In this document: positions 8,071 through 60,586 of the stretch, piece after piece
Position numbering within the stretch: the first letter of the stretch is position 1
Layout: each line of letters starts with the position of its first letter
Source: Mucor racemosus
Taxonomy: Eukaryota; Mucoromycota; Mucoromycetes; Mucorales; Mucoraceae
DNA length: 64,000 nucleotides
Direction of reading: 5' to 3'
Assembly: GCA_027405735.1 (NCBI GenBank)
Contig: JAPEHQ010000020.1
Location: forward strand, 558,001 to 622,000
The notes under the pieces: generated by a model
What the model was told of the DNA's origin: nothing
Databases searched by the model: none
What the model saw: the letters and a program-made list of their open reading frames with translations, nothing else
Program-made: the position numbers and the translations under genes

Positions 8071-9412
8071 ATGAAACTGAGAAGCGGAACCAAGCATAAT
8101 TTAGCCAATATCAAGCAAGAAATATCTTCAATTGGCTCTAATCCAGACACAGAAAACAAATTTTGTAAGGACAGCAAGATTATCAAGAAACATCAATTAC
8201 ATGGCGTTTATCCAAAAGAAGAATGTTCGAGCAGTAGCAGATTTGTTGGAGCATTCGAAAATGATCAAAATAAAAGTAACATTTACACACTACAAAGAAA
8301 AAATTATATCAATAATTGCTATCTTGAAAAAGTTGATTGCATTAATATTGAGATCAAGCAAGAAGTTACAGCAAAATCAGGATCACTATTAAGCGCAACT
8401 CCAGGTATGTATGACATCAATTGAGCAATCAAAATTATTAATACATGTGTTTGTTAATACAGATAGTTCCTCTGATAATGGTAATAGAGATTACTGCTAT
8501 CGATGCCAAGCATGTAAAGAAAAAATGAGCAAATTTACATTATTAGTCGAACACCGTAGGTTGATCCATAATATCCGATACACAGGAAACTCTATAAAGG
8601 ATATAGATATAGAGCCAGATATTCATAATCTCGAAAAGTATTGCCAACCTTGCGAAAAATCATTTTCATCTGCTCCAACTTATAAATCTCATTTGAGAAA
8701 AGTTCACTGTATGCTTTTCAAGCGATTGCCGCTTAAACCCCAAAATGATACCAAGCCTGATCCCAATAATTCCAACTTTTATTGCTGTTCATGTAATCGT
8801 ACGTATACAAATAGAAGACTATATGGAATTCATTTGAAATATAAGCATCAAATGAAGCTGGCTCGCCCACGTCGAAAAAAGAAACTTGGTGTTCTTCCGG
8901 ATTGGAATGACCAAAATTATTGTTGTCAACCTTGCGGGCATACATTCAAGCGACGTTACTCATATCACAGACATTGTATTTTTACACATCATATGGATCC
9001 ACCGAAAACCGATAGTCCTGACATACCTAATACAGGATTTCACTGCAAAGTATGCAACGTTACTCTCAAAAGTGGAAACTCCTATAACAACCATTGTCGC
9101 TATCTTCACCCTAGATATGATAAATCAGCCATTGCAAAACTTCCTGTTTCTCCAGATATATCAGACCCCAACAACTATTGTAAAATATGCAAGAAGATGT
9201 ATAGCAATAAGTACACTTATCGTTCACATTTGAGATATATTCATAAAATGCTGGATATTCCGAAATTTCTAAAGAAACCTAAAAATATCGCACCTGACAT
9301 CAATGACCCTAATTACTATTGTCGTTCTTGCGATAAAACTCTATTCTCGGTATATACGTTTCGATATCACCTTTGGAGCGTCCATTCCATACGTGAAAAA
9401 ATTCAAACGTAA
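8071..9412 (+). CDS. C2H2 zinc-finger array protein, 7 fingers, C-terminally shortened
   Basis: Exons 8071-8404 and 8463-9412, with a 58-nt GT-AG phase-1 intron, encode about 427 residues. The ATG at 8071 (MKLRSGTKHN) matches the leader of the paralogues. Exon 1 is acidic/polar, with psi-K-x-E motifs at residues 14-17 (IKQE) and 95-98 (IKQE). Exon 2 has seven C2H2 fingers of the form C-x2-C-x12-H-x4-H, about 45-52 residues apart, joined by linkers ending in DPN. The frame stops in the linker after finger 7, where paralogues carry four more fingers. Sequence beyond the stop still resembles finger-8/9 linker DNA but is deleted and ends in a run of about 27 A. A nucleic-acid-binding regulator is likely from the fold; the target is unknown. 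Confidence 0.85.
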
Positions 9413-10941: not shown

Positions 10942-12848
10942 ATGCAAAATAAAATGAAACGTAGGAGTAAAAACACGCGTACTTTACCCAATATCAAGCA
11001 AGAAGAGCCTGCGATTGATCTCAATCTTTATAAAGCAGCACCTTCAACAGATAGTGGTAAAAACATCTCTAAATACCAGTTACCTGATTTTGATTCAAAT
11101 GGAAATGATTGCAGTGGTAACAAATTATTAAAAAAAACCGAAAACGATCAAACTCAAAGCAACAGCACATTGAGAAATACTGGTGAAATCTGCAGCAAGA
11201 TCAGCAAAGAAATTGAGAGTGCTGAAATTGAGGTCAAGCAAGAATTTAAAATAAAACATGAGACACTAGCAAACGCAAATTCGGGTAATTTCTTTATTAA
11301 TCGAACAAAATGTATGTCTATTGATGCATTGTAAATACAGATGAGGCTCTTGATGCAAATCAAAACGATTATTATTATCAATGCCGAACATGCAATATGA
11401 AAACTAGCAAATTACAATCATTAATACAGCACCGTGAATCGATTCATAACATCAAATTCAGAGGAACATCGATAAAGCGTATTGATTTGGAGCCAAATAT
11501 CAAATATCCTAACAACTATTGTCAATCTTGCGAAAGAGCATTTCCGTCTTTTAAAAAATATCGTGTTCATCTAAGATTAGTTCACTATATGACTATAAAG
11601 CGATCACGATATAAAACCCGAGAAGATATTAAACCTGACCCTGATAATCCCAACTTTTATTGCTGTTCATGTGATCGTACGTATCCAAATAGAAAAAAAT
11701 ATCGAATCCATTTGAAACATAAACATGAAATGAGACTGGTTCCCCTGCTTGGAAGGAAGAAACTTAATACCCTTCCTGAATGGAATAGCCAAGATTATTA
11801 CTGTCAATCTTGTGAACATACATTCGAAGCAAGAGATTTGTACCACAAACACTGTATACTTACACATCATATGAGCCCACCAAAAATCGAACGTCCGCAC
11901 ACACCGGACCCGAGTTTTCACTGCAAAACGTGCAACGTTACCCTCAACAGTAAAAACGCTTACAACAACCATTATCGCTATTTTCACCCTAAATATATCA
12001 GATCAGCCATTGCAAAACGTAATGTTCTTCTAGATGTATCAGGTCCCAATGATTACTGTAAAGCGTGCGATAAGCAATTCAATTGTAATCGAGACTACTT
12101 TTTGCATTTGCACTATGTTCATAAAATGCTAGGTATTCCTAATATCAACCAAAATCTTAAAGAAACTACCCCTGATGTCAATGACCCCAACAACTATTGC
12201 CGTTCCTGTGATAAAACACTTTCCTCGAAACATGGGTTTAAAAGGCATCTTTTGTCTATCCATTCTATAGGTAAAAATATTCCAAAGCAAGGTAGCTTAC
12301 AACCTGATGTTAACGATGTTGATTTTTACTGTCGAGTTTGCAAACATAAATACGCTACCAAACAACATTACCGAAATCATCTTCGCGAAATGCATAAAAT
12401 GAAGTTAGAATCGTTATTGACTAGTGCATATAGCCCTAACTTTCTTCCAGATCCTTTAAACCCCAAATTTTATTGCTGTGTTTGCAAATCAACCAAAAAG
12501 ACATTGGGCGGACATCGAAGTCATTGTAGAGAAATTCATTTAATGAAACTAGATCCTATTCCTTTGGCCTATCCTAATGCAACGATCGATGTCGAAAGTC
12601 CTGATTTTTATTGTGCAAAGTGCGATAAGCATATGAAAAAGAAAGCATATTTTGTAGATCATCTGCGAAGAATACATTCAATAGAACCAGTTAGGTTTCC
12701 TTACCCCAATGCAGAACTTGATGAATTTGATCCCACATTTTATTGTGCAATCTGTGATAGACATCTCTCTACAAAATACATCTTTAAAATTCATTTGAAA
12801 CACACTCACAATTTCGTAAGTACACCTGTTGGAACTTTACGTAATTAA
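10942..12848 (+). CDS. C2H2 zinc-finger array protein, 11 fingers (full-length family member)
   Basis: Exons 10942-11284 and 11341-12848 are separated by a 56-nt phase-1 intron; the product is about 616 residues. A second in-frame ATG at 10954 (MKRRSKN) aligns better with paralogue starts and may be the true start. Exon 1 carries IKQE near its beginning, and VKQE plus IKHE shortly before the intron. Exon 2 has eleven C2H2 fingers, each C-x2-C-x12-H-x4-H, with long linkers carrying PD-x-x-DPN-FYC. Finger 9 departs from the pattern (C-x2-C-KSTKKTL). The finger order corresponds one-to-one with the genes at 20369 and 58672, so the array is a fixed register rather than a freely shuffled tandem. 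It is probably a nuclear DNA- or RNA-binding factor; its function is not known. Confidence 0.88.
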
Positions 12849-17025: not shown

Positions 17026-18566
17026 ATGAAGCTGAGGAATAGGCCCAGGCGTGATATATCTAAAGTCAAACAAGAAGTATCTGCAAATGACTTTAACCTT
17101 CGTACGGCAAGATCACCTTTGATAAACAATAAAGACACTACAAAATGCCTAAAAGAAGAAAAAGAAGAAAAAGAAGATGATGCAAGTAGTAGCGAGTTTG
17201 TTGGTCGTAGCGAGAATGATCCAAATCAAGTAGATAACAGATTAGAAAGAGTTGCCCATATCAACAACACTGGTTCTGAAGAATCTGAACGACTTGATGT
17301 TGAAGTCAAACACGAAGCAACGACAAAATTTGAAGTTGTATCAATTCCAGGTAATACATTAGCCCTTTGAACAAATAAACATAAACTAAATATATTACAA
17401 CTGAAGATAAATCCCGTTCACCACCCGAGGGCAGGGATGGTGATTATTATTATTGTGATATGTGTAATGAAGAAATGACCGATTACAAATCAGTATTAGC
17501 CCATCGCCAATCAGTCCACAACATAAAGTATAATAGAATAACCCTAAAGCATATCGATTTGGAACCGGATATTAATGATCCCAATTTTTATTGTCAAACT
17601 TGTGAAAAGACATTTCGATCAAAAATGTATTATCGACAGCATATAAAGGAGGTTCACCATATTCATTTAAAGCGCTTGAAAACAAGAGTAAGGAATAATA
17701 TTATTCCAGATCCACAGAATCCCGACTTTTATTGTCGTTCATGCGATCTAACATATGGAGGTAAAAGACAATACCACGACCATTTAAGAAGATATCATAA
17801 AATAAGACAAATTCGAATGAAAGATATAAATTCCGGCATTCTTCCTGATTGGAACGATCCATCCTTTTATTGTATAGCATGTAATATGACCTACAAGACA
17901 AAAGCTTCTTTTTCGATACATTGCAGACATATTCACAACATGAAGAGACCTGAAAAGACTGCAAAAGATGAATTTCCTGATCCAAATGAACCTAGCAATC
18001 ACTGCAAAATATGTAACATTAATTTCAAACACAAATTATCTTACAGACAACATTGTCGTTATAAACATAACATGAAGTTTTCGAAAATGTTTGCCAATCC
18101 TGATGTTACTCCAGATTTATCGGACCCTAATGACTACTGCAGAACATGCAAAAAATCATTCAAGAGTAAATATGGCTACCATTGGCATTTATTTTCTGTT
18201 CACGAAATGGATGTTCCAAGTTTGAAAAAGCAAACCAACAACATCTCACCGAATATTGATGACCCTGATAATTATTGCAGTGCTTGTGATAAAGTATTAG
18301 CCACAAAATATGGCTTCAAGAAGCATTTAATAGTAGTTCATTCTATAGATTGGCCAGTGCGAGAAGAAAACTTGCAACCTGATGTGAACGATCCTAACCT
18401 TTACTGTTGTGTTTGTAAAAAAAATTACAAATCTAAATTATCTTACCGTAAACACCTTAAAGCAAGACACAAAATATCAACTCGACGTCTACCAACCCGC
18501 TTACAGCGTACGGATCCTGCTAGCCCCAATCATCCCGATGTTGTCATTGATACTCAACAGTTCTGA
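17026..18566 (+). CDS. C2H2 zinc-finger array protein, 8 fingers
   Basis: Exons 17026-17350 and 17407-18566, with a 56-nt phase-1 intron; about 494 residues. Leader MKLRNRPRRD, then VKQE near residue 16 and VKHE about 15 residues before the intron. A lysine/glutamate-rich stretch (residues 43-53) lies between. Exon 2 carries eight fingers of the family type with DPN linkers. After finger 8 the protein ends in a short tail (RRLPTRLQRTD...), about three fingers earlier than the 11-finger paralogues. The DNA after the stop does not obviously continue the array, so this looks like a settled shorter form rather than a fresh frameshift. Target and function are unknown. Confidence 0.87.
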
Positions 18567-20725: not shown

Positions 20726-22305
20726 TGAGCAAAAATGCTTATTATTAATGCATGATTATTACATATGGAAAAGCTAATACAAGCAATCAAGAATACTATT
20801 ATCAATGCTCTATATGCAATGAGAAAAAAAGCAAGTTTTCATCATTAGTAGAGCATCGCAAATCGGTCCACTCTGTCAAATACAAAGGAAGAACCATAAA
20901 GCATATCGATCTAGAGCCAAACATTCATGATTCTGGAAATTATTGTCAATCTTGCGATAAAACACATTCATCTTTTGTCATATATCGACAACATTTGAGA
21001 ACAGTTCATGGTATGCTTATGAAGCCAATGCTTGGTAGATTACGAAATAACATCAACCCTGATCCTGATAACCCCGAACCTTATTGTCGTTCATGTGATC
21101 GCATGTATAGAGATAGAAATAGATATCGCAGCCATTTGAGAGAATTCCATAAAATGAAACTGGTGCCAATAAAGATGGAAGGCTGGATGATAAAGAACCC
21201 TGATATCCTTCCTGATTGGGATGATCCAAACCGTTATTGTAAATCTTGTGAGAATACCTACAAAACAAAATTATCATATCAAAATCATTGTAGAATTAGA
21301 CACCACATGAAAACACCACCATCAAAAATCGAACGCCCTGATTTAAATGATCCCAACTTTTACTGCAAATTATGTAAAACAACTTTCAGCACTAGAGGTT
21401 CCTTTGCGACCCATTGTAGTTATTTTCACCCAATACACTCCAAGTCAAAGATTATAAATCCAGATGTTCTTCCGGATATATCAGATCCCAATAACTATTG
21501 CAGCGCATGCGAAAAGACTTTTATCAGTATATTTACTTATCGTAAACATTTACAAAACATTCATAAGATGCTGGGTGCCCCACATTTTCCAAAGAAGCCT
21601 AAAGATATTATCCCTGATATAAATGATCCCAATAACTATTGCCGTTCTTGTGATAAAACGCTAAGCTCCAGATACTTGTATAAAATGCATCTTTCCCGCT
21701 TCCATTCTATAGGCAAGAGGAAAGTTCGAAAAGAGAATACCTTTCTACCTGATGTGAACGATCCAAATTTCTATTGTCGAGTCTGCAAATGTAACTGCGT
21801 TGATAAAGATAAATACCGGACTCATCTTCGTGAAGTGCACAAAATGACACGAAAGTCTCTCAAAAGTATGGATCCCATATTACTTCCAGATCCTCTAGAC
21901 CCTAATTTTTACTGCAGTGTATGTAAAAAAACAAAGAACAAGCTTGGTGCATACCGTAATCATTGTAGAAATGTGCATAATATGAAATTGGACCCTATAC
22001 CTAACGTATATCCTGATGTAGAAATAGATATCAACAGTCCTGATTTGTATTGTGCAAAGTGCGAAAAACATTTAATGACGAAAAGCTCCTTTACATGCCA
22101 CTTGAAACGGGTTCACTCTTTGGATCCCGTGAGACATGTTACTTTTCCAGATGCCAAAATTGATACATCTGATCCCAATCGATATTGCTCAAAATGTAAC
22201 AAATACTTTGCAACCAAACAAAGCTTTAACGCTCATTTAAAAAATTATCATGATTTGAAATGTCCTTTTATTAGACGCTTTAATTGGTCAGGTGAAAGTG
22301 TATGA
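20369..22305 (+). CDS. C2H2 zinc-finger array protein, 11 fingers
   Basis: Exons 20369-20681 and 20774-22305; about 614 residues. The intron is in the family position and phase (1) but is 92 nt instead of 55-58 nt, because it contains an (AT)n run at about 20695-20720. The only acceptor that keeps the frame is the AG at 20772-20773. Leader: MKLRAKRN, IKQE near residue 13 and MKQE about 17 residues before the intron. The eleven fingers are in the same order as the gene at 10942, each C-x2-C-x12-H-x4-H with DPN linkers, and all zinc ligands look intact. It is probably one of the functional members. It may act as a transcriptional or RNA-level regulator; nothing in the sequence gives a target. 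Confidence 0.88.
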
Positions 22306-42659: not shown

Positions 42660-43405
42660 AGTTTCAATCTTCAACACCGGAGCGTACTATCTTTTCTATA
42701 ACTATCCTCATACTAAACCTTTTTAGGATATACTTTAGACACTACTAAGTAGACATAAATTGGTCGCATTATGCTACCTATTCCTAAATTTACTTTATAT
42801 CTCACGAAAAACTCAAAAACGCGTAAAATTCACTGCTTTTCCCTTGAAAACTGGGTCCTACTTTCCATCCCTGCCAACTTTTTTTTTCACTAAATAACAC
42901 CAAGAAAAAAATATACGCCAATGTACCTGAAATGCTCGCCTTTAATCCAAAAACAAGTATTCGAAAATATCCTACTTTTTACAGTTGGTATTAATTTTTC
43001 AGCGCTAAGGTTTCAGGTTTTTTACGCGTATTTCACTGCTAATGGGTTGAAAACTTTGAGGCTTCGGATCTTTAGAAAAAATTAAGCTATACTAATACTT
43101 TATAATAATAAAACTTACTTGTTTTAAAGTGCTCTATAACATATTTGAGTATAAAAAAATTCTGAGCACTTTTATTTTTTTCATTTTTTGGGCATTTTTA
43201 TAGTAGGTTTCAAAATATTAGCTAAATTGAGCAACATTTTTTTTGCATTCATGTTATTAAACTCGTTAAGCTCTCTCGGATCCAATTTAGAGTTTTTCAA
43301 AATATTGATTTTTCGTGGAGATATCCTAAAAAATGTGTACAAAAAGGTACCTCCATTTCTAGCTTCCATTTTCCCCTTGTATACCCTCACTCATCCTAAA
43401 TTCTG
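42660..43405 (-). repeat. Dispersed repeat, copy 5, left part (split by a LINE)
   Basis: Closely similar to 38745-39490 in the same orientation. It stops at TCATCCTAAATTCTGAA, where the LINE begins, and resumes at about 47727. Confidence 0.8.
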
Positions 43406-43407
43406 AA

Positions 43408-46400
43408 AATACAGGCATAGAAGGTCGATTTATACTAGCCAATATACATTATACAACGGAAGAAGAACCTTCATCTTTCAATGCTATAGCAACAACATTA
43501 AACATTTACGGAAGAGCAACATCAAAGAAAGATAATGTGGCGTTTTATACGGAATTGATGGAGAACTCTTTTTTAACTTACATGCTAACTTCAATTCAGC
43601 ATAATCTTTTCGTCGTGGGAGATTTCAACTATAAATATGAATTGAAAAAGAGTGATGGTACAGTAGAAGCAACTACAAAGGAATGGACAACGTTCCTAGC
43701 GAACCATTTCATTGATTGCTTTAGAGAGGATAAGCGAGTAACTTGGCATGGAACCCGAGGCACAGCACATATTTTGGACTATATCTTTTGTAACAATCAC
43801 TCATATGAACACGTAACTGACTACAGGCAGGAGTATTTAAATCCAATTTGGACAGATCACGATATGCTGGTCATTACCGTTCGACTGAAAAAAGACCGTA
43901 GACAGGGTCCAGGAGCGTATAAATGCAACCCCTTTTTAGCCCAAAAGAAGCAATTTCGGACTGATTTGGTACCATTTCTGGAAGGACTACAAACTACAAG
44001 GGAATTAAAGAAGACAACACAGACAGCTCAAGAGATATGGGACTGGATAAAGGTTGAATTTAAAGAATACGTACGGCAATATCAATTAGAAGATCTGAAC
44101 TGGAGGAGAAAACAATTAAAGAGACTACAATCAAAGCGTAACCGGTGTATGAGACTTATGAAGAGCCGAGGACTGATATTTCAAGTGCTACCTACCATTG
44201 AACGTCAAATTAGTTCTTTGCAAGACTCTATAGCTGAAATTGAAGTTCTCAAATTAGGGAAGTATTGGCGAGAGAATAATGAAAAGAATGCTGGTTTCTT
44301 AAAAAAACTCACCATTTCTCGACAGACTAAAAGACAATTGAAGCAGCTCAGACATCTTGAGACTCAATTACTTTGTACTGATCAAGAAACTATGAGCGAG
44401 ATTACTGGGAATTTTTACACCCAACTTTACACACCCGATGCTACAGATGACAGATCGACGAGACTACTATTGAATCAAATTACTCCCAATATGCAATTAG
44501 ATAGTGAGCAGCAAACAGATCTGGAGCAAGAGATAGAGATTGATGATATACTTTTTGAATGCAAGCGTACGCCAAAATTTTCCTCACCAGGAAGTGATGG
44601 AATACCCTACCCTTTGCTTTCCTTGATATTGAAATTCCCACCGTTCAAATCACTACTGGAAGAAATTTATAATGACGCACTTACTAAAGGCATTTTTCCT
44701 GAATCATGGAACATATCACAAATGACTCTACTGTATAAGAAAAATGACCCAAATGATATAGCCAATTTTAGGCCTCTCTCATTATGTAATACTGATTATA
44801 AGCTGCTCACGAGATTAATCAATCGTCGAATGATGGAAGTGGCTCCGCAACTTATTAATGAGAATCAAGCTGGCTTTGTGCCTGGTCGGTTCATTGCGCA
44901 AAATGCAATGAGATGTCAAGTTATCATGGAAGACGCAGAAAGGGGATGGAATTTGGTTAAACAAAAGAAACTTCCAAACCAATCTGACAGTTTAGCAATT
45001 GGACTTAGCTTAGATCAAGAAAAAGCTTATGATCGAGTAAACCTCAAGTATTTGCATGCAGCTCTCCTTAAGTATGGATTTCCCACAAGATTTACTAGAT
45101 GTCTGATGAATATGATGGGACAAAATCTATTACGGATAAATGTCAATGGCTACTTTACGAAAGATGTACCTAAACTTAGAGGCTTGAAACAAGGTGATCC
45201 GGTGTCAGCTATCTTGTATAACCTCGCCATTGAACCTTTCTTAAGATCTATACTAAATGATCCACTATATCAGGGCTATCAAATGAAATATGATGCTACG
45301 CATCCACTGTATTCTACTGAGGCGCCTCTGGTACATACGACAAAAATACTTTGTTATGCGGATGATGCACTTGCATTAGTACAAAATCGGAATGATCTGC
45401 AAAGATTAGAGTACCACCTGGAAATATATTATAAAGCTACTAATGCTAACATTAACTACAACAAGGTTGAGGCTATATCTCTCTCTGGCAAAAACACAGG
45501 CTCTTACTGGAGAAATGCTTTAACGGACATGAAGATTACCAAATTCACAACCATCGACGATACGGTACCAGTTACCTATCTCGGCTTCCCATTGCTGCAC
45601 TCAATACGACAAAGAGAAGTCTTTATGGCGAGGTTCCTCGATAACTTGAGAACGACTGTCAAGATATACAATACTAGGACTCTATCGGTGATCGGCAAAG
45701 CAACAGTACTGAATAGTCTGTTACTATCAAAATGCTGGTACCTTTTAAGAGTTACTCCACTAACTCTTAATAATATTCAATCCACAGTCTCAATAGCTAA
45801 CCAGTATCTTCGTAAAGGGATCTTCCCCGTCATACCCTGGTCAACCTGGATAAAACCAAAACCGCTGGGTGGTCTAGGCGTCTTGGATGTTGCTACACAA
45901 CAATCTGCTCTGTATTTCCGATGGGTTCAACCCTTGTTACAACCCTCCTCAAATCAGACAATCCTCGACCATATGCTACGAATGCTCATCAATAAGCGTA
46001 ATCATAGCCAATATGTAGAAATGCCATTGCTGTTTCCTGCTAGTAGAGCGTCTGGAATGTTCAAACAAAGGACAACAACTGTAGACATGATATATCGATC
46101 AATTGACAACGTTCCCCGGAATTTTGAAGATGTAGAGATTACCACGAATACAGCTAGGATATTACCTCTGAAGATGGTTTTGCAGGTTACTCCCTTGGTT
46201 CCTAAATTACCTGTCCGTGTCAAGTCCATGACGGTTGGAGATATATACACCAATGACACTTTGAATACACAACTCAAGGCTATACCGATTAAAAACATTG
46301 AGCAAGCTCATAGACAAGCTAGTAAAAAACTGCTACGACAAATTCAAGATGACTCAATAAGGTTACAGCCTTACATATCAAGACTGATACGGGACTCCCC

Positions 46401-46443
46401 CCACCGAAACAGATGTAGCTACGGACATGCCAGATGCAACTGA
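43408..46443 (+). pseudogene. LINE ORF2: endonuclease (partial) and reverse transcriptase
   Basis: Open for about 1,010 codons with no start codon at its beginning, because the element is truncated. The endonuclease/exonuclease/phosphatase remnant shows FVVGDFNYKYE, a TWHGTRGTAHILDYIF segment and WTDHDMLVITV (the terminal His motif); the N-terminal catalytic part is lost. Reverse transcriptase blocks follow: SSPGSDGIPY, FRPLSLCNTDYK, NQAGFVPGR, LSLDQEKAYDRV, RGLKQGDPVSAILYNL and LCYADDALALV, with the catalytic Asp pair intact. The stop at 46441-46443 comes before the usual C-terminal domain, which continues in another frame. The product cannot support retrotransposition on its own. Confidence 0.88.
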
Positions 46444-47053
46444 GCATAGCACCGTGGATTTCTCCCCCTTTGTTAAAAACCTCTTCCCTGCTGAAAGAGC
46501 CAATATTGCTCCCACAATTACAACGAAATCTTTTAGAAGAGCTTGCGCTACGGGACATTGCTCAGCCATACCTGGGATGAATTGGAAGTACTTTTGGGCG
46601 CTCTCCTTGACACTTGTACAAAGAAATGTTTTATATCGTTTTCTAACAAGGTCAATACCGCACAAATCTATTCTACACTACTTCAAGATCATTGAATCAC
46701 CAACTTGTTTTGTTTGTAAAAGCTCAAAAGAAGACGCTGAACATCTACTATTTCTCTGCCCACCTAAAGCCTCAATATGGAAGGATATTATCTTCGAATT
46801 CCTATGGCCCACGGTATCAGTAAAAGATATAATACATGCCTGCTCCACCCTAGACTTTACAGACGTGAAATATGTCTCTAAAACCTATACTACTGCTCCT
46901 ATGGTTATTATTATGACTCTGGCCAACATTTGGAGAGCTCACTTTCGACTAATTTTCCATGATGCGCCCTTTAACCGGGACATGGTGGTAAAACAAATCA
47001 AAGAAGAGATCCAGTTGGTCCATGATGAAAATGAAGTCCACAAGCAATTATAA
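46427..47053 (+). pseudogene. LINE C-terminal zinc-knuckle region in shifted frame
   Basis: Overlapping the end of the RT frame, a second frame has WKYFWALSLTLVQRNVLYRFLT and a Cys-His cluster, CFVCKSSKEDAEHLLFLC. This C-x2-C-x7-H-x4-C pattern is the RT-associated zinc-binding domain that closes many LINE proteins. It should be part of the preceding protein, so a frameshift near 46,400-46,440 separates them. Confidence 0.8.
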
Positions 47054-54020: not shown

Positions 54021-55026
54021 TTTTAAATAATGTTTTGTAAAATAGATAGATCGTTAGAAAGCGAGCGCGCTCAAAACGCCAAATGGTTTCTTCAAAGGAC
54101 GTGTTCTTTTTTTTGAATATCAGATCCTTTTTGACGTTTAGTTTGAATGTCCTTGTGCAACCATCCAAGCATTTGATGTATACACAGAGCCTGAACCATT
54201 TAGATTTTGTTACAATATCCCCTTTATTCATTTATCTTTTTAAATTCTACGTAAACATACATTTAATGTTGTGCTTATAGAAAATCTGGTATTAAAATAT
54301 GAGCATTTGCCATTTTTCATTATGCTATAATTTCAAGCAAATTGTGTCAATTTTATTCAAAACACTATCGAATACTCTGTAAAAGTAACATTTGTATTGA
54401 GATATTGCATGCGCTCAAGTAAATTCTGGATATTTATTGCATATAATGAGCATAATCAATCTTTTTTTTTTTTTTTGGCCACAATTGCTGCAGATTTTTT
54501 TTTTTTTTTTTTGGATTTAGTAGCCTCAGTGTTCAAATACCAATACAAGCACCATTCTAACAATCAAATCCAAATAAAAAACATTAACAGATACCCGAGA
54601 TATTACCAAACAATTTTGTAGCACTTTTTTATGTTTATCCTACTTGATGGTTTAGAATAAATCTTTTGAAGTGTTTATTTGAACTTTTTTGTGTACTTTC
54701 GGAGCTGACATTTGCTATCAAAAGTTACTGATGCATACACATTTACTATATTAAATACTATGTAATTCGTGTCGGCTTCTTGTAAAGATGTTCTCAGTAT
54801 AACGTTAGATGTATATTTACATAATTGAAAGGTATACACACTAAATAAGTAGAATTAAAAATTTTGAATTAAATTTATTGAATCAAAGAGTAATTACGAC
54901 CGTGATTAGTTTGCCAAAGAAAAAACCGGATTTTAATATGTATCTATCAATGAATATGCTTATAAGCTTTTCTGGCATTAAAAAGAGTTTCTTTCGCTTC
55001 CTTCTAAAACTTGTTTGATATCTATA
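54021..55026. other. Divergent promoter region of MSH2 and the F-box gene
   Basis: One kilobase of AT-rich DNA with two T-runs (54462-54476, 54497-54512). No gene supported. Confidence 0.55.
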
Positions 55027-56130
55027 ATGCCTTCATTAAACTCTTTACCATTAGAGCTCATTCAAGAGATCTTGGGTCATATCGATTCGGTAAAGCAATT
55101 GGTACAATGTAGATTAGTCAACAAAATCTTTAGCGACATTGGTGAGCGTATCATCCTCAAAAAACAAATCACAATCAAAACCACCTTTAGAGCAATACAA
55201 CTATACGAATATTTAAAGAATAAACGTTCTAGATGCAGCCAGATTACTCATCTTGATATCAATGTTCCATTTTATGATGACTCTTCGCCATTCATCAATT
55301 TATTGCGATTGGCTTTTACACCATCAATGGAGGCTCTTGGTGGTTTGTCAGATTCACCCGTAATATTTGCTGCTTTATGTGATATTTCAAACAGCTCCAC
55401 AACCAAGTTTAACAAAGTCAAGATGATTCCTTCCTGCAAAAGAGATTACGATAATAATTATAATAATGCATTATTACAATTCAAGGAAACATTGGAATCT
55501 ATGTGCTTGACTTATTATAATTCCATCAACTGGAAATTTGTGCATCGCTTGAAAGAATTCAAGGTCTTAAATCCACTTTATTTGGAGTTGGCTGTTCAAA
55601 CTGTTGAAACTTTAGAGAATATCTTGAAAGAGTGCACCCAAATTAAAGAGCTTACCATACACCTTGCTTTTCGAATCGACACAATCTCAAAGGAGCGTTT
55701 GAATGCTTTGCTGAAGGCTTCAAATCAAATTACTACATTAAAAAATCTTACAATCAAAGGAGTGTGCCGACCAGATCTTGTTGAATATCTTGCTCATAAA
55801 TACCCAAATATTGATTATATTTTAATTGACACAGTCAACCGTGATCCTCCTTGGGACGCATATACTCACCGTATCTCATTGGATTTTCACAATATTGATC
55901 ATATAATCAATTTGTTTGGACACATCCCAAGTTATGAGTTGAATTTTAGATTAAAGCGTGGATTCACATTGAAAACTATCCAAAACTGCATCCTTAAAAA
56001 CAACGACAAAAATCTCATTAGTGAAACTAAGGTGCGAGATGTTATATATTATAATATAACAACTCGAGGTCCTGAAATGAAGAGTATAGTAGAACGTATA
56101 CATAACTTGGTTGTCAAAAGTAATAACTAA
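55027..56130 (+). CDS. F-box protein
   Basis: A single exon of 367 codons from the ATG at 55027 (MPSLNSLPLELIQEIL). Residues about 5-45 form an F-box: LPLELIQEILGHIDSVKQL, then VQCRLVNKIFSDIGERII. F-box domains bind Skp1 and bring substrates to SCF ubiquitin ligases. The remaining 320 residues have a loose leucine periodicity (for example IKELTIHLAF and TTLKNLTIKGV), compatible with degenerate leucine-rich repeats as in many fungal F-box/LRR-like proteins. No other domain was recognised and the substrate is unknown. It is divergently arranged with MSH2. Confidence 0.8.
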   Translation: MPSLNSLPLELIQEILGHIDSVKQLVQCRLVNKIFSDIGERIILKKQITIKTTFRAIQLYEYLKNKRSRCSQITHLDINVPFYDDSSPFINLLRLAFTPSMEALGGLSDSPVIFAALCDISNSSTTKFNKVKMIPSCKRDYDNNYNNALLQFKETLESMCLTYYNSINWKFVHRLKEFKVLNPLYLELAVQTVETLENILKECTQIKELTIHLAFRIDTISKERLNALLKASNQITTLKNLTIKGVCRPDLVEYLAHKYPNIDYILIDTVNRDPPWDAYTHRISLDFHNIDHIINLFGHIPSYELNFRLKRGFTLKTIQNCILKNNDKNLISETKVRDVIYYNITTRGPEMKSIVERIHNLVVKSNN

Positions 56131-57020: not shown

Positions 57021-57030
57021 GTATAAATAT
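57021..57030 (+). promoter_or_regulatory. TATA box of the HPr-like gene
   Basis: GTATAAATAT lies 61 nt before the ATG at 57082, a eukaryotic-type core promoter; no Shine-Dalgarno sequence precedes the ATG (AAAAAATTAAATA). Confidence 0.55.
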
Positions 57031-57081: not shown

Positions 57082-57342
57082 ATGATCTCTCAAGAAGTAG
57101 CTATTAGTACTCCCAAAGGTTTCAAGGTTCGCCCTGTAACAAAATACATCAAGACTTGTAGAGGTATGAAGTCTGAAATTATCTTGTCTTGTAAGGGAAA
57201 ATCTTGCGACTCAAAGTCTCCTTCTGGTTTGATGAGCTTGGCTTTAGAAAATGGTGATGTTGTTACCCTTTCTGTGAACGGTACTGATGCAGAAAAGAAT
57301 TTCCCCATTTTGGTAGATCTCCTGCAAAAAGTAGGACATTGA
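57082..57342 (+). CDS. HPr-like protein (PTS phosphocarrier fold) lacking the active-site histidine
   Basis: An intronless frame of 86 residues. It aligns without gaps to bacterial HPr through at least residue 60: QEVAISTPKGFKVRP against the family's QEV-x-I-x-x-P-x-G-L-H-T-R-P. In HPr, His15 takes a phosphate from enzyme I and Arg17 assists. Here residue 15 is Lys, with Arg17 and Pro18 kept. Ser46, the site used by HPr kinase in Firmicutes, is present (DSKSPSGLMSLAL). The C-terminal GDVVTLSVNGTD and FPILVDLLQK fit the last strands and helix. Loss of His15 with Ser46 kept is the pattern of Bacillus Crh, a purely regulatory HPr paralogue, so a phosphotransfer role is unlikely and a binding role more likely. 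Flanks are fungal and a TATA box precedes the gene, arguing against contamination. Acquisition from bacteria is inferred. No PTS partner gene lies in the window. Confidence 0.85.
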   Translation: MISQEVAISTPKGFKVRPVTKYIKTCRGMKSEIILSCKGKSCDSKSPSGLMSLALENGDVVTLSVNGTDAEKNFPILVDLLQKVGH

Positions 57343-58671: not shown

Positions 58672-60586
58672 ATGAAACTTAACCTGAGCAATAACAACGC
58701 AAATTCCAAAGCATTTATCAAGCAAGAGCTTCTACCACTCGATTTCACTTTTAATACACACCAAGATGAAATCCATTTTGAACAAGAAGAAGATGATGAT
58801 GATGATGAAGAAGAAGCACCTTTCACAGACTATACTCTTAAAGATGATGATATGCCAAAAACTGAAGAAATATTATTGAATGAAATTGAATTCAATTTGA
58901 GTGAGCAGCATTACGATAGCAAGCAAACCCAAATTACACGCGAATTGACATCTAAAAGAAAAAGAACAAAAGAACCTGAATATCCAACTTGCATAGTCTA
59001 TATACCTAATGAGAGTATGGACGAAGTATTAAAGCGAGAGGAAACAACAAAACCCATTCCTTTAAATGGTATTGATTAAAGAGGATTACTGTAGAATAAC
59101 GTATTAACGTATAGCAATTCTAGATAAAACGCTTATACCAACCAATCAAGACTATTATTATTCATGCCCAACATGTCAAGAAGTTGAAACTGATCTTGAT
59201 TCATTCATACACCATCTTGATTCAACCCATAATATCCGACACAAAAACTTGGTTGTCAAGCATACTGATTTAGAGCCTAATATTCATGATCCCAATTTCC
59301 ATTGTCGTACATGTGAAAGAACCTATCCAAACACAGAAAGATATTGGAGTCATTTGAGATTAGCGCATTATATCACTTTCAATTTAACAGGATCAGCGGT
59401 AGCAATGAACGATTGTACTTGTCGAACATGCGATAAAACATTTACAAATAAAAAGGAGTTTAATAAACATATGGTCAAGGTTCATCGAAGGAAAAGAAAC
59501 GCGGACATTCTCCCTGACTGGAACGACCCAAATCAATACTGCCGTTCTTGTGATTATTTCTATAAAGGAAGATCCAACTTTCAAAATCACTGTAATTTAG
59601 TCCATCATATGCAACGTCCTGTAAAAAAAGCTCGGCCACAAGGCATCCCTGATACAAACGATCCCAATTTCTACTGTAATGTTTGCGAGAAGACTTACGG
59701 CGGGAAACAACAGTTCAGACACCATTGTAGAAATGTACATCATGTATCATTCAAGCGACTTCCAAATCCTGATATTACTCCAGACCCCGAGGACCCCAAC
59801 AATTATTGCAGAGCATGCGATAGAACCTATACCAAGAAATTCACTTATATCAGACATTTGATCAATAATCATCAAATGGAAAACCTTCCAAACAGTCCAA
59901 AGAGATGTAGGCCTAATATATTGCCTGATGTCAATGACCCTAATTTTTACTGTCGTTCTTGTGATAAGAAATTGGCAGCCAAAACACACTACAATAGACA
60001 TCTTTTATCGGCCCATTCTATTGGCGAGCAAACCCCAGAAGCAGGTAGAGAAAAATTGATGCCTGACGTTGATGACCCTAATTTTCATTGTCGTGTCTGC
60101 AAACGAGATCTTCTTACAAGCACCAAATATCGGCAACATCTTCGATCTATTCACAAAATGGTATTAAAGTCTTTAACTTCTGCCAATTACGATCCTAATT
60201 TCTTCCCTGATCCCCTCGACCCCAATTTCTACTGCCGTGTTTGCAAGATAAACTATGATAGAATTGGAATATACCGTACTCATTGCAGAAACACTCATCG
60301 TATGACATTAGACCCTATTCCTTTCGCTAATCCTGATGCTGAAATTGATATCAATAGTCCTGATTCATATTGTGCAAAATGCAATTTATATTTCAAAGGA
60401 AGATTTATCTTTAAAAAGCATTTGAAATCTAAGCACAACGTTAAGTTTACTAAAATAGTCAATCCAGATGCAGTTATCAACGTAGATGACCCAAATTTCT
60501 ATTGTGCTAAATGTGATTTGCATCTCTCAAAAAAACCAACTTTCCAAGCCCATTTAAAGAAATTGCACGATTTGCCTAATTGCTAA
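58672..60586 (+). CDS. C2H2 zinc-finger array protein, 11 fingers (isolated family member)
   Basis: Exons 58672-59068 and 59124-60586 with a 55-nt phase-1 intron in the family position; 619 residues. Exon 1 (MKLNLSNNNAN) has IKQE near residue 17, an acidic run (EEDDDDDEEEA, encoded by GAT/GAA repeats) not seen in the paralogues, and LKRE about 12 residues before the intron. Exon 2 holds eleven C2H2 fingers in the family order with DPN linkers. Finger 3 is unusual in lacking the aromatic residue before the first Cys (NDCTCRTC), and its linker to finger 4 is short. All zinc ligands look intact. This copy is separated from the cluster and could be the ancestral or a relocated member. The target is unknown. 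Confidence 0.88.

Follow-up and report, generated by a model that had tools for sequence, protein, structure and literature searches.

An HPr-family protein of Mucor racemosus and related Mucorales with lysine in place of His15

A stretch of 64,000 nucleotides from the mucoralean fungus Mucor racemosus (GenBank assembly GCA_027405735.1, contig JAPEHQ010000020.1; hereafter the window) contains a short gene for a protein of the HPr family in which residue 15, the histidine of HPr, is lysine. The reading that we favour, with some confidence though well short of certainty, is of a fungal gene acquired once, whose product, with its Lys15, would be a non-catalytic binding protein presenting a basic face on helix 1. 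In bacteria, the uptake of sugars has HPr as its central relay. If the reading is true, we see here HPr alone in a eukaryote, with neither kinase chain nor histidine, a relay protein that has outlived its pathway with only its binding face retained.

The gene product and its fungal family

The open reading frame (ORF; Table 1) has the position and the length of 86 residues given in a preliminary description of the window. PF00381, the HPr family of the phosphotransferase system (PTS), matches the protein with 60.5 bits (E = 1.6e-16, cut-off 23) over residues 2-82, corresponding to model positions 1-80 of 81. TIGR01003 scores 56.1 bits, above its cut-off of 47.9, while the top-scoring NCBIfam model is NF008104 (HPr) at 61.8 bits, its own cut-off of 153 not being reached. 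In a phmmer comparison residues 1-82 align without gaps to residues 1-82 of Escherichia coli HPr, so that the two proteins share their residue numbering and Lys15, Arg17 and Ser46 are indeed as first described. The fold was also checked, as had been suggested: the predicted structure has a mean predicted local distance difference test (pLDDT) score of 92.2 and a helix at residues 16-27 and, on this model, the fungal protein has the open-faced β-sandwich fold of HPr. The only histidine in the window protein's fold is its last residue, His86.

Three protein searches returned 11 proteins of the fungal type beyond that of the window itself (P0002-P0011 and P0015). Four are from named carriers, Mucor saturninus, M. 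flavus, Thamnidium elegans and Helicostylum pulchrum, and the remaining members were assigned to fungi on the basis of their clustering with the four named Mucorales proteins. Identity to the window protein within the family is 62-69%, setting aside P0002, which is a near-copy of it (99%), and P0011, a shortened record; bacterial HPrs reach at most about 41%. Judged by sequence, the fungal HPr proteins are a family of their own. All 11 full-length copies are intact, including those of three named species of two genera. No other named fungus was seen among the 18 proteins retrieved at E ≤ 10 from 933 candidates, in a word-based search that may miss distant ones, and none of the three protein searches returned a protein named as from Glomeromycotina.

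Some members of the family are unusual. P0005 and P0015, which have lost Arg17 (Phe and Cys, respectively) and have one extra residue each at the turn before strand 2, are placed in separate parts of the fungal tree; each may be a second copy that is less tightly constrained. P0011, from H. pulchrum, is without nine residues around positions 15-23, the start of helix 1 and the Lys15-Arg17 region. As a gap of 27 bases is short for an intron, this may be either a real deletion or an error in the gene model.

Conserved and changed residues

Residues were counted at each site in 11 full-length fungal rows, five gammaproteobacterial rows, three rows of the Crh group and 16 other bacterial rows. P0012-P0014, P0016 and P0019 were counted as bacterial on their sequence; P0011 (nine residues short), P0017 (a near-copy of P0016) and L002 and L022 (duplicates of L025 and L011) were left out of both these counts and the tree described below.

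Lys15, Pro18, Lys21, Ile23, Lys24 and Arg27 are invariant in the fungal rows, as are Lys30, Lys45, Ser46, Pro47, Leu50 and Met51. Ser48 is present in ten of the 11 and Arg17 in nine, the window protein among them. The fold has no histidine in any fungal row apart from a C-terminal one in P0001 and P0002; P0005 carries one in its N-terminal extension. The gammaproteobacterial rows have His15, Arg17, Lys24, Leu47 and Phe48 in all five cases and Gln21, Lys27 and Ser46 in four; the Crh group has Gln15 and the hydrophobic pair Ile47-Met48 in three of three. Across the 24 non-fungal rows residue 15 is His in 20, Gln in three and Asp in one. Since Lys is found there in none of them, the change from His15 to Lys probably occurred inside the fungi or in an unsampled donor. 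The presence of Lys15 in all 11 full-length copies suggests that the fungal protein likely no longer carries phosphate and has a binding or regulatory role instead. As first proposed, a carrier has likely been converted into a protein that binds or regulates; His15 is replaced by Lys, Ser46 is kept, and a real HPr-family gene lies in a fungal contig.

Ser46 itself is less informative than was first supposed. It occurs in four of five gammaproteobacterial rows, in two of three of the Crh group and in 13 of 16 other bacterial rows; being common in HPr rows generally, it is no diagnostic of regulation.

Residues 12-27 of the window protein have a net charge of +6, and those of three other fungal rows measured have +5, compared with +2 in E. 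coli HPr and 0 in Crh. The helix-1 face has become more basic, and the changes at positions 47 and 48 mean that the hydrophobic plug there has been given up. The same charge could serve instead to bind an anion or phosphometabolite: Lys15 and Arg17, located at the N-terminus of helix 1, would line a pocket that accommodates a nucleic acid or a small molecule bearing phosphate rather than a protein. Such a pocket would suit the invariance of Lys15, the charge found in the four measured fungal rows (+5 or +6) and the fact that site 15 in HPr holds a phosphoryl group. We nevertheless regard it as rather improbable, given the loss of Arg17 in two of the 11 fungal rows and a structure that is a ligand-free predicted model.

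Variation within the family might also point to a weakly constrained structural relic that has kept the fold but has little or no function. The losses of Arg17 in P0005 and P0015, accompanied by a one-residue insertion at the same turn, the nine residues missing from the Helicostylum record near where helix 1 begins, and the failure of invariant positions to cluster on one face are all in keeping with decay of this kind. A relic would hardly be expected, however, to have left 11 full-length copies intact, three named species of two genera among them, or Lys15, Lys21, Lys24, Arg27, Ser46 and Pro47 invariant, and we consider it unlikely, if still worth bearing in mind.

PTS partners

Profiles for the partners of HPr were run against the six-frame translated assembly at E = 0.1, a procedure in which introns could hide weak exons. 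Enzyme I was not found in the assembly with either PF05524, for its N-domain, or PF02896, for PEP-utilizer C (positive in seven and 14 of 14 control genomes, respectively), nor was EIIA with PF00358 (EIIA-Glc) or PF00359 (type 2), for which six and seven of the 14 controls were positive. HPr kinase was likewise unmatched by PF07475, for its C domain, and TIGR00679. These two were positive in only four of the 14 control genomes each, Bacillus subtilis being detected only with TIGR00679; as no other partner had so few positive controls, HPr kinase is the one whose absence is least certain. The enzyme is not known from fungi. A comparable six-frame search recovers two glycogen phosphorylases (see below) as long single frames.

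Evolutionary origin and relationship to Crh

A tree was calculated from 35 rows (11 fungal and 24 non-fungal) and 87 alignment columns. Two of its rows, L023 and L024, we take to be FruB and ptsA. The 11 full-length fungal rows are united with support of 100/97 and lie beside gammaproteobacterial HPr (98/98), while Crh is found in a separate group with Priestia and Niallia paralogues (97/90). A pruned panel, from which seven rows were dropped for long branches (L024, L026, L027 and L014), odd composition (L018) or as aberrant copies (P0005 and P0015), agrees on the grouping of fungal and gammaproteobacterial rows (96/94). Scored against a profile of the fungal family, E. coli HPr reaches 80.7 bits and the Crh chains 48-51. 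Sequence, fold and tree all lean towards E. coli-type HPr rather than Crh.

Alternative topologies were compared with the approximately unbiased (AU) test. Grouping the fungal rows with Crh costs 13.6 log units on the pruned panel, where it is rejected (p = 0.036), and 11.6 log units on the full panel, where it is not (p = 0.226). Common descent with Crh, tried as a candidate, is therefore rejected by the test only after the seven rows have been dropped. Grouping the fungal rows with Bacillota HPr on the pruned panel costs 9.3 log units and is not rejected (p = 0.174). With an alignment of this length and these unrejected alternatives, a single ancient transfer into the ancestor of part of the Mucorales, from a gammaproteobacterial donor, is likely rather than established.

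The search for a donor in genome contigs gave one weak actinobacterial locus, at 30% identity. Among plasmid records 32 matched, most of the top rows being Enterobacterales ptsH copies at 37-41% identity, and the tree took 12 of the 32. No relatives of fungal HPr were found in the viral contigs searched. Row L014, the HPr of the reduced insect symbiont Candidatus Stammera capleta, has Phe14, Thr20, Lys21 and Arg27 in common with the fungal family, and Asn at position 46; a drift to AT-rich codons is the likely reason for the resemblance.

These results bear on the label 'Crh-like' applied to the protein in the preliminary description. It holds in so far as residue 15 is not His and Ser46 is kept. 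As to kinship and mechanism it lacks support, in view of the profile scores, the position of Crh in the tree, its Gln15 and Ile47-Met48 and an HPr kinase that was not found; the comparison with bacterial HPr and Crh in a tree, which had been called for, set the fungal rows beside the former, a grouping with the latter being rejected on the pruned panel only. A functional analogue of Crh, in the sense of a regulator switched by phosphorylation of Ser46 and binding a transcription factor as P-Ser-Crh binds CcpA, is a related idea which could draw on the combination of a non-His residue 15 with Ser46 in all 11 fungal rows and on the full-panel AU result. To us it has a low probability, since two models found no HPr kinase, Pro47 and mostly Ser48 stand where Crh has Ile47-Met48, the best tree and the profile scores point to E. 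coli-type HPr, and the pruned panel rejects the grouping with Crh.

A possible mechanism

We infer that the fungal protein is made. Its Lys15 would not be expected to accept phosphate from Enzyme I in the manner of HPr. Rather, it would add positive charge where the partners of HPr carry acids, turning the protein into a standing mimic of unphosphorylated HPr with a stronger charge interface. The basic helix-1 face could then dock on an acidic partner, with charge and not a Phe48 plug carrying the binding; as Phe48 is lost, the surface of such a partner must differ from known HPr interfaces.

In E. coli, unphosphorylated HPr is reported to bind MtlR, Rsd, EI and LsrK; Phe48 enters a hydrophobic pocket and basic residues such as Arg17 and Lys27 face acidic residues of the partner, acidic partner residues near His15 repel phospho-HPr, and S46D weakens the binding of HPr to MtlR (PMC6763467). 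H15A HPr is described as acting as a regulator like the unphosphorylated protein (PMC5320558), and a peptide of residues 9-30 is described as binding EI and Rsd alone (PMC8509676), which suggests that helix 1 can suffice.

As a prediction from the sequence of the site, Ser46-Pro47 might be phosphorylated in the fungus by a proline-directed kinase of the cyclin-dependent (CDK) or mitogen-activated (MAPK) type. A phosphate on Ser46 would bring negative charge to the basic face, releasing the partner. Ser-Pro is the minimal site of proline-directed kinases; it is also a common helix start, and this is the plainer reading of the site.

Several points weigh against the picture of an acquired, basic-faced binding protein. 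The partner face shows no significant excess of invariant columns (12 of 25 in the patch, 22 of 61 elsewhere, p = 0.34), which argues against too tidy a picture of the interface. Pro47 is also present in three of the 16 other bacterial rows and Arg17 is absent from two of the 11 fungal ones. Partners of unphosphorylated HPr are usually anchored by Leu47 and Phe48; both are lost, so the interfaces known for HPr may not apply to the fungal protein. Ser46-Pro47 could be no more than the beginning of a helix, with Ser as cap and Pro in the first turn. Where origin is concerned, the tree rests on only 87 columns, and the groupings with Crh (full panel) and with Bacillota HPr (pruned panel) both survive the AU test. 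Finally, there is the small number of control genomes positive for HPr kinase.

Glycogen phosphorylase as a candidate partner

Many fungi have one glycogen phosphorylase gene; the assembly contains two. Both are nearest to the yeast enzyme, so that a bacterial source for them was rejected, and both resemble the E. coli enzyme along some 800 residues. The paralogous genes, L007 and L008, have long open frames and share a near-identical N-terminal stretch starting MSTTPTS. E. coli glycogen phosphorylase is reported to be regulated by HPr (PMC11046441), and 9s8b and 9s8k, released in April 2026, are by their titles structures of such complexes. By analogy, glycogen phosphorylase is the first candidate for a partner of the fungal HPr protein. 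A bolder proposal, for which we would claim only a slim chance, is that a bacterial PTS carrier was domesticated in the Mucorales as a metabolic signal protein that is permanently 'unphosphorylated', Lys15 locking it in the binding state, a proline-directed kinase acting at the new Ser46-Pro47 site as the off-switch in place of HPr kinase, and the fungal glycogen phosphorylase being the target.

Genomic setting

The window comprises bases 558001-622000 of a contig of 1,035,000 bases, in an assembly of 53,218,998 bases and 54 contigs. A search of the whole assembly with PF00381 gives the HPr locus, at 59.5 bits, as its sole match, and a sequence search likewise finds one HPr locus. Base composition is like that of the neighbours, as originally noted: GC content is 0.391 for the HPr ORF and 0.311-0.394 for 11 other measured ORFs, and the corresponding values at third codon positions are 0.345 and 0.175-0.369. 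Six neighbouring ORFs, on which the codon table was also trained, gave 101 overlapping segments of the same length as the HPr ORF, and its codon-use score of 12.1 lies above that of some 60 of them.

The HPr family is known mainly from bacteria, and PF00381 had matches in bacteria and one archaeon among the control genomes, so bacterial contamination or a misjoined contig has to be considered. In line with the fungal flanks first described, the ORF has eukaryotic genes as neighbours to left and right within a contig of 1.035 Mb. Codon use of the HPr ORF is host-like, there are 11 further relatives, four of them from named Mucorales, and Enzyme I and EIIA are without a match in the assembly. 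We attach practically no weight to contamination.

The upstream gene encodes MutS domains III, IV and V and is MSH2-like, and the downstream neighbour is a C2H2 zinc-finger ORF. A nearer upstream ORF (54982-56130) is F-box-like by eye, with no Pfam match at 1e-5. C2H2 zinc-finger proteins account for five of the ten ORFs scanned, in a dense run across 52 kb. Some 10-14 kb upstream of the HPr gene lies a reverse-transcriptase ORF (43537-46440, within the region 43363-47053), which we read as of the long interspersed nuclear element (LINE) type; an overlapping ORF in a different frame follows it. The TATA box mentioned in the preliminary description is present upstream of the gene as a consensus match (Table 1).

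Table 1. Positions in the window of the HPr-family gene, its key codons and other features
Feature	Position	Strand	Remarks
HPr-family ORF	57082..57342	+	Single exon, uninterrupted from ATG to TGA, 86 aa; Lys15, Arg17, Ser46, Pro47
Lys15 codon (His15 in HPr)	57124..57126	+	Read from ORF sequence
Codons 16-27, predicted helix 1 (partner-binding helix of HPr)	57127..57162	+	Arg17, Lys21, Lys24, Arg27; predicted model
Codons 46-48, Ser-Pro-Ser	57217..57225	+	Leu-Phe at 47-48 in gammaproteobacterial HPr
Candidate TATA box TATAAATA	57022..57029	+	Starts 60 bases before A of ATG; consensus match only
Candidate polyadenylation signal AATAAA	57394..57399	+	52 bases past stop codon; consensus match only
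Second AATAAA	57470	+	Consensus match only
C2H2 zinc-finger ORFs	8411-9412, 11397-12848, 17460-18566, 20752-22305, 59108-60586		Domain scan

Comparison with known systems

Fungal homologues of HPr are already known. They have been counted in several early-diverging fungi, many in Glomeromycotina, under TCDB 8.A.8 and with their role given as unknown; the passages of that source on the family offer a count, without a residue-level statement on sites 15, 17 and 46 (PMC8778642). No account of the Lys15 form was found in the searches of open-licence papers and, on that basis, it is apparently new. With the fungal protein one could test cleanly whether HPr can make its regulatory contacts apart from phosphotransfer.

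The best profile and structure match of the fungal protein is E. coli-type HPr (ptsH; PF00381, NF008104), with which it shares its fold, its numbering and 38-41% identity to the E. coli structures. Arg17, Lys24, Lys40, Lys45 and Ser46 are common to the fungal and gammaproteobacterial proteins. The two differ in the replacement of His15 by Lys, of Leu47-Phe48 by Pro-Ser and of Gln21 by Lys, in an NF008104 score that stays below the model's cut-off, and in the Enzyme I and EIIA that are unmatched in the fungal assembly.

Crh of B. subtilis is, like the fungal protein, a relative of HPr without His15 and with Arg17 and Ser46. It works with HPr kinase and CcpA, whereas no HPr kinase was found in the fungal assembly. 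Crh further differs in its Gln15, its Ile47-Met48 and a helix-1 charge of 0 against +6, and on the fungal profile it scores some 30 bits below E. coli HPr.

The entries from T. elegans, M. flavus, M. saturninus and H. pulchrum belong to the same family as the window protein. Those of Thamnidium and Helicostylum already bear the name of PTS HPr component, and both Mucor entries carry the UniRef label of phosphocarrier protein HPr. Such names imply phosphohistidine transfer, which the absent histidine makes unlikely, and the finding of Lys15 would correct them.
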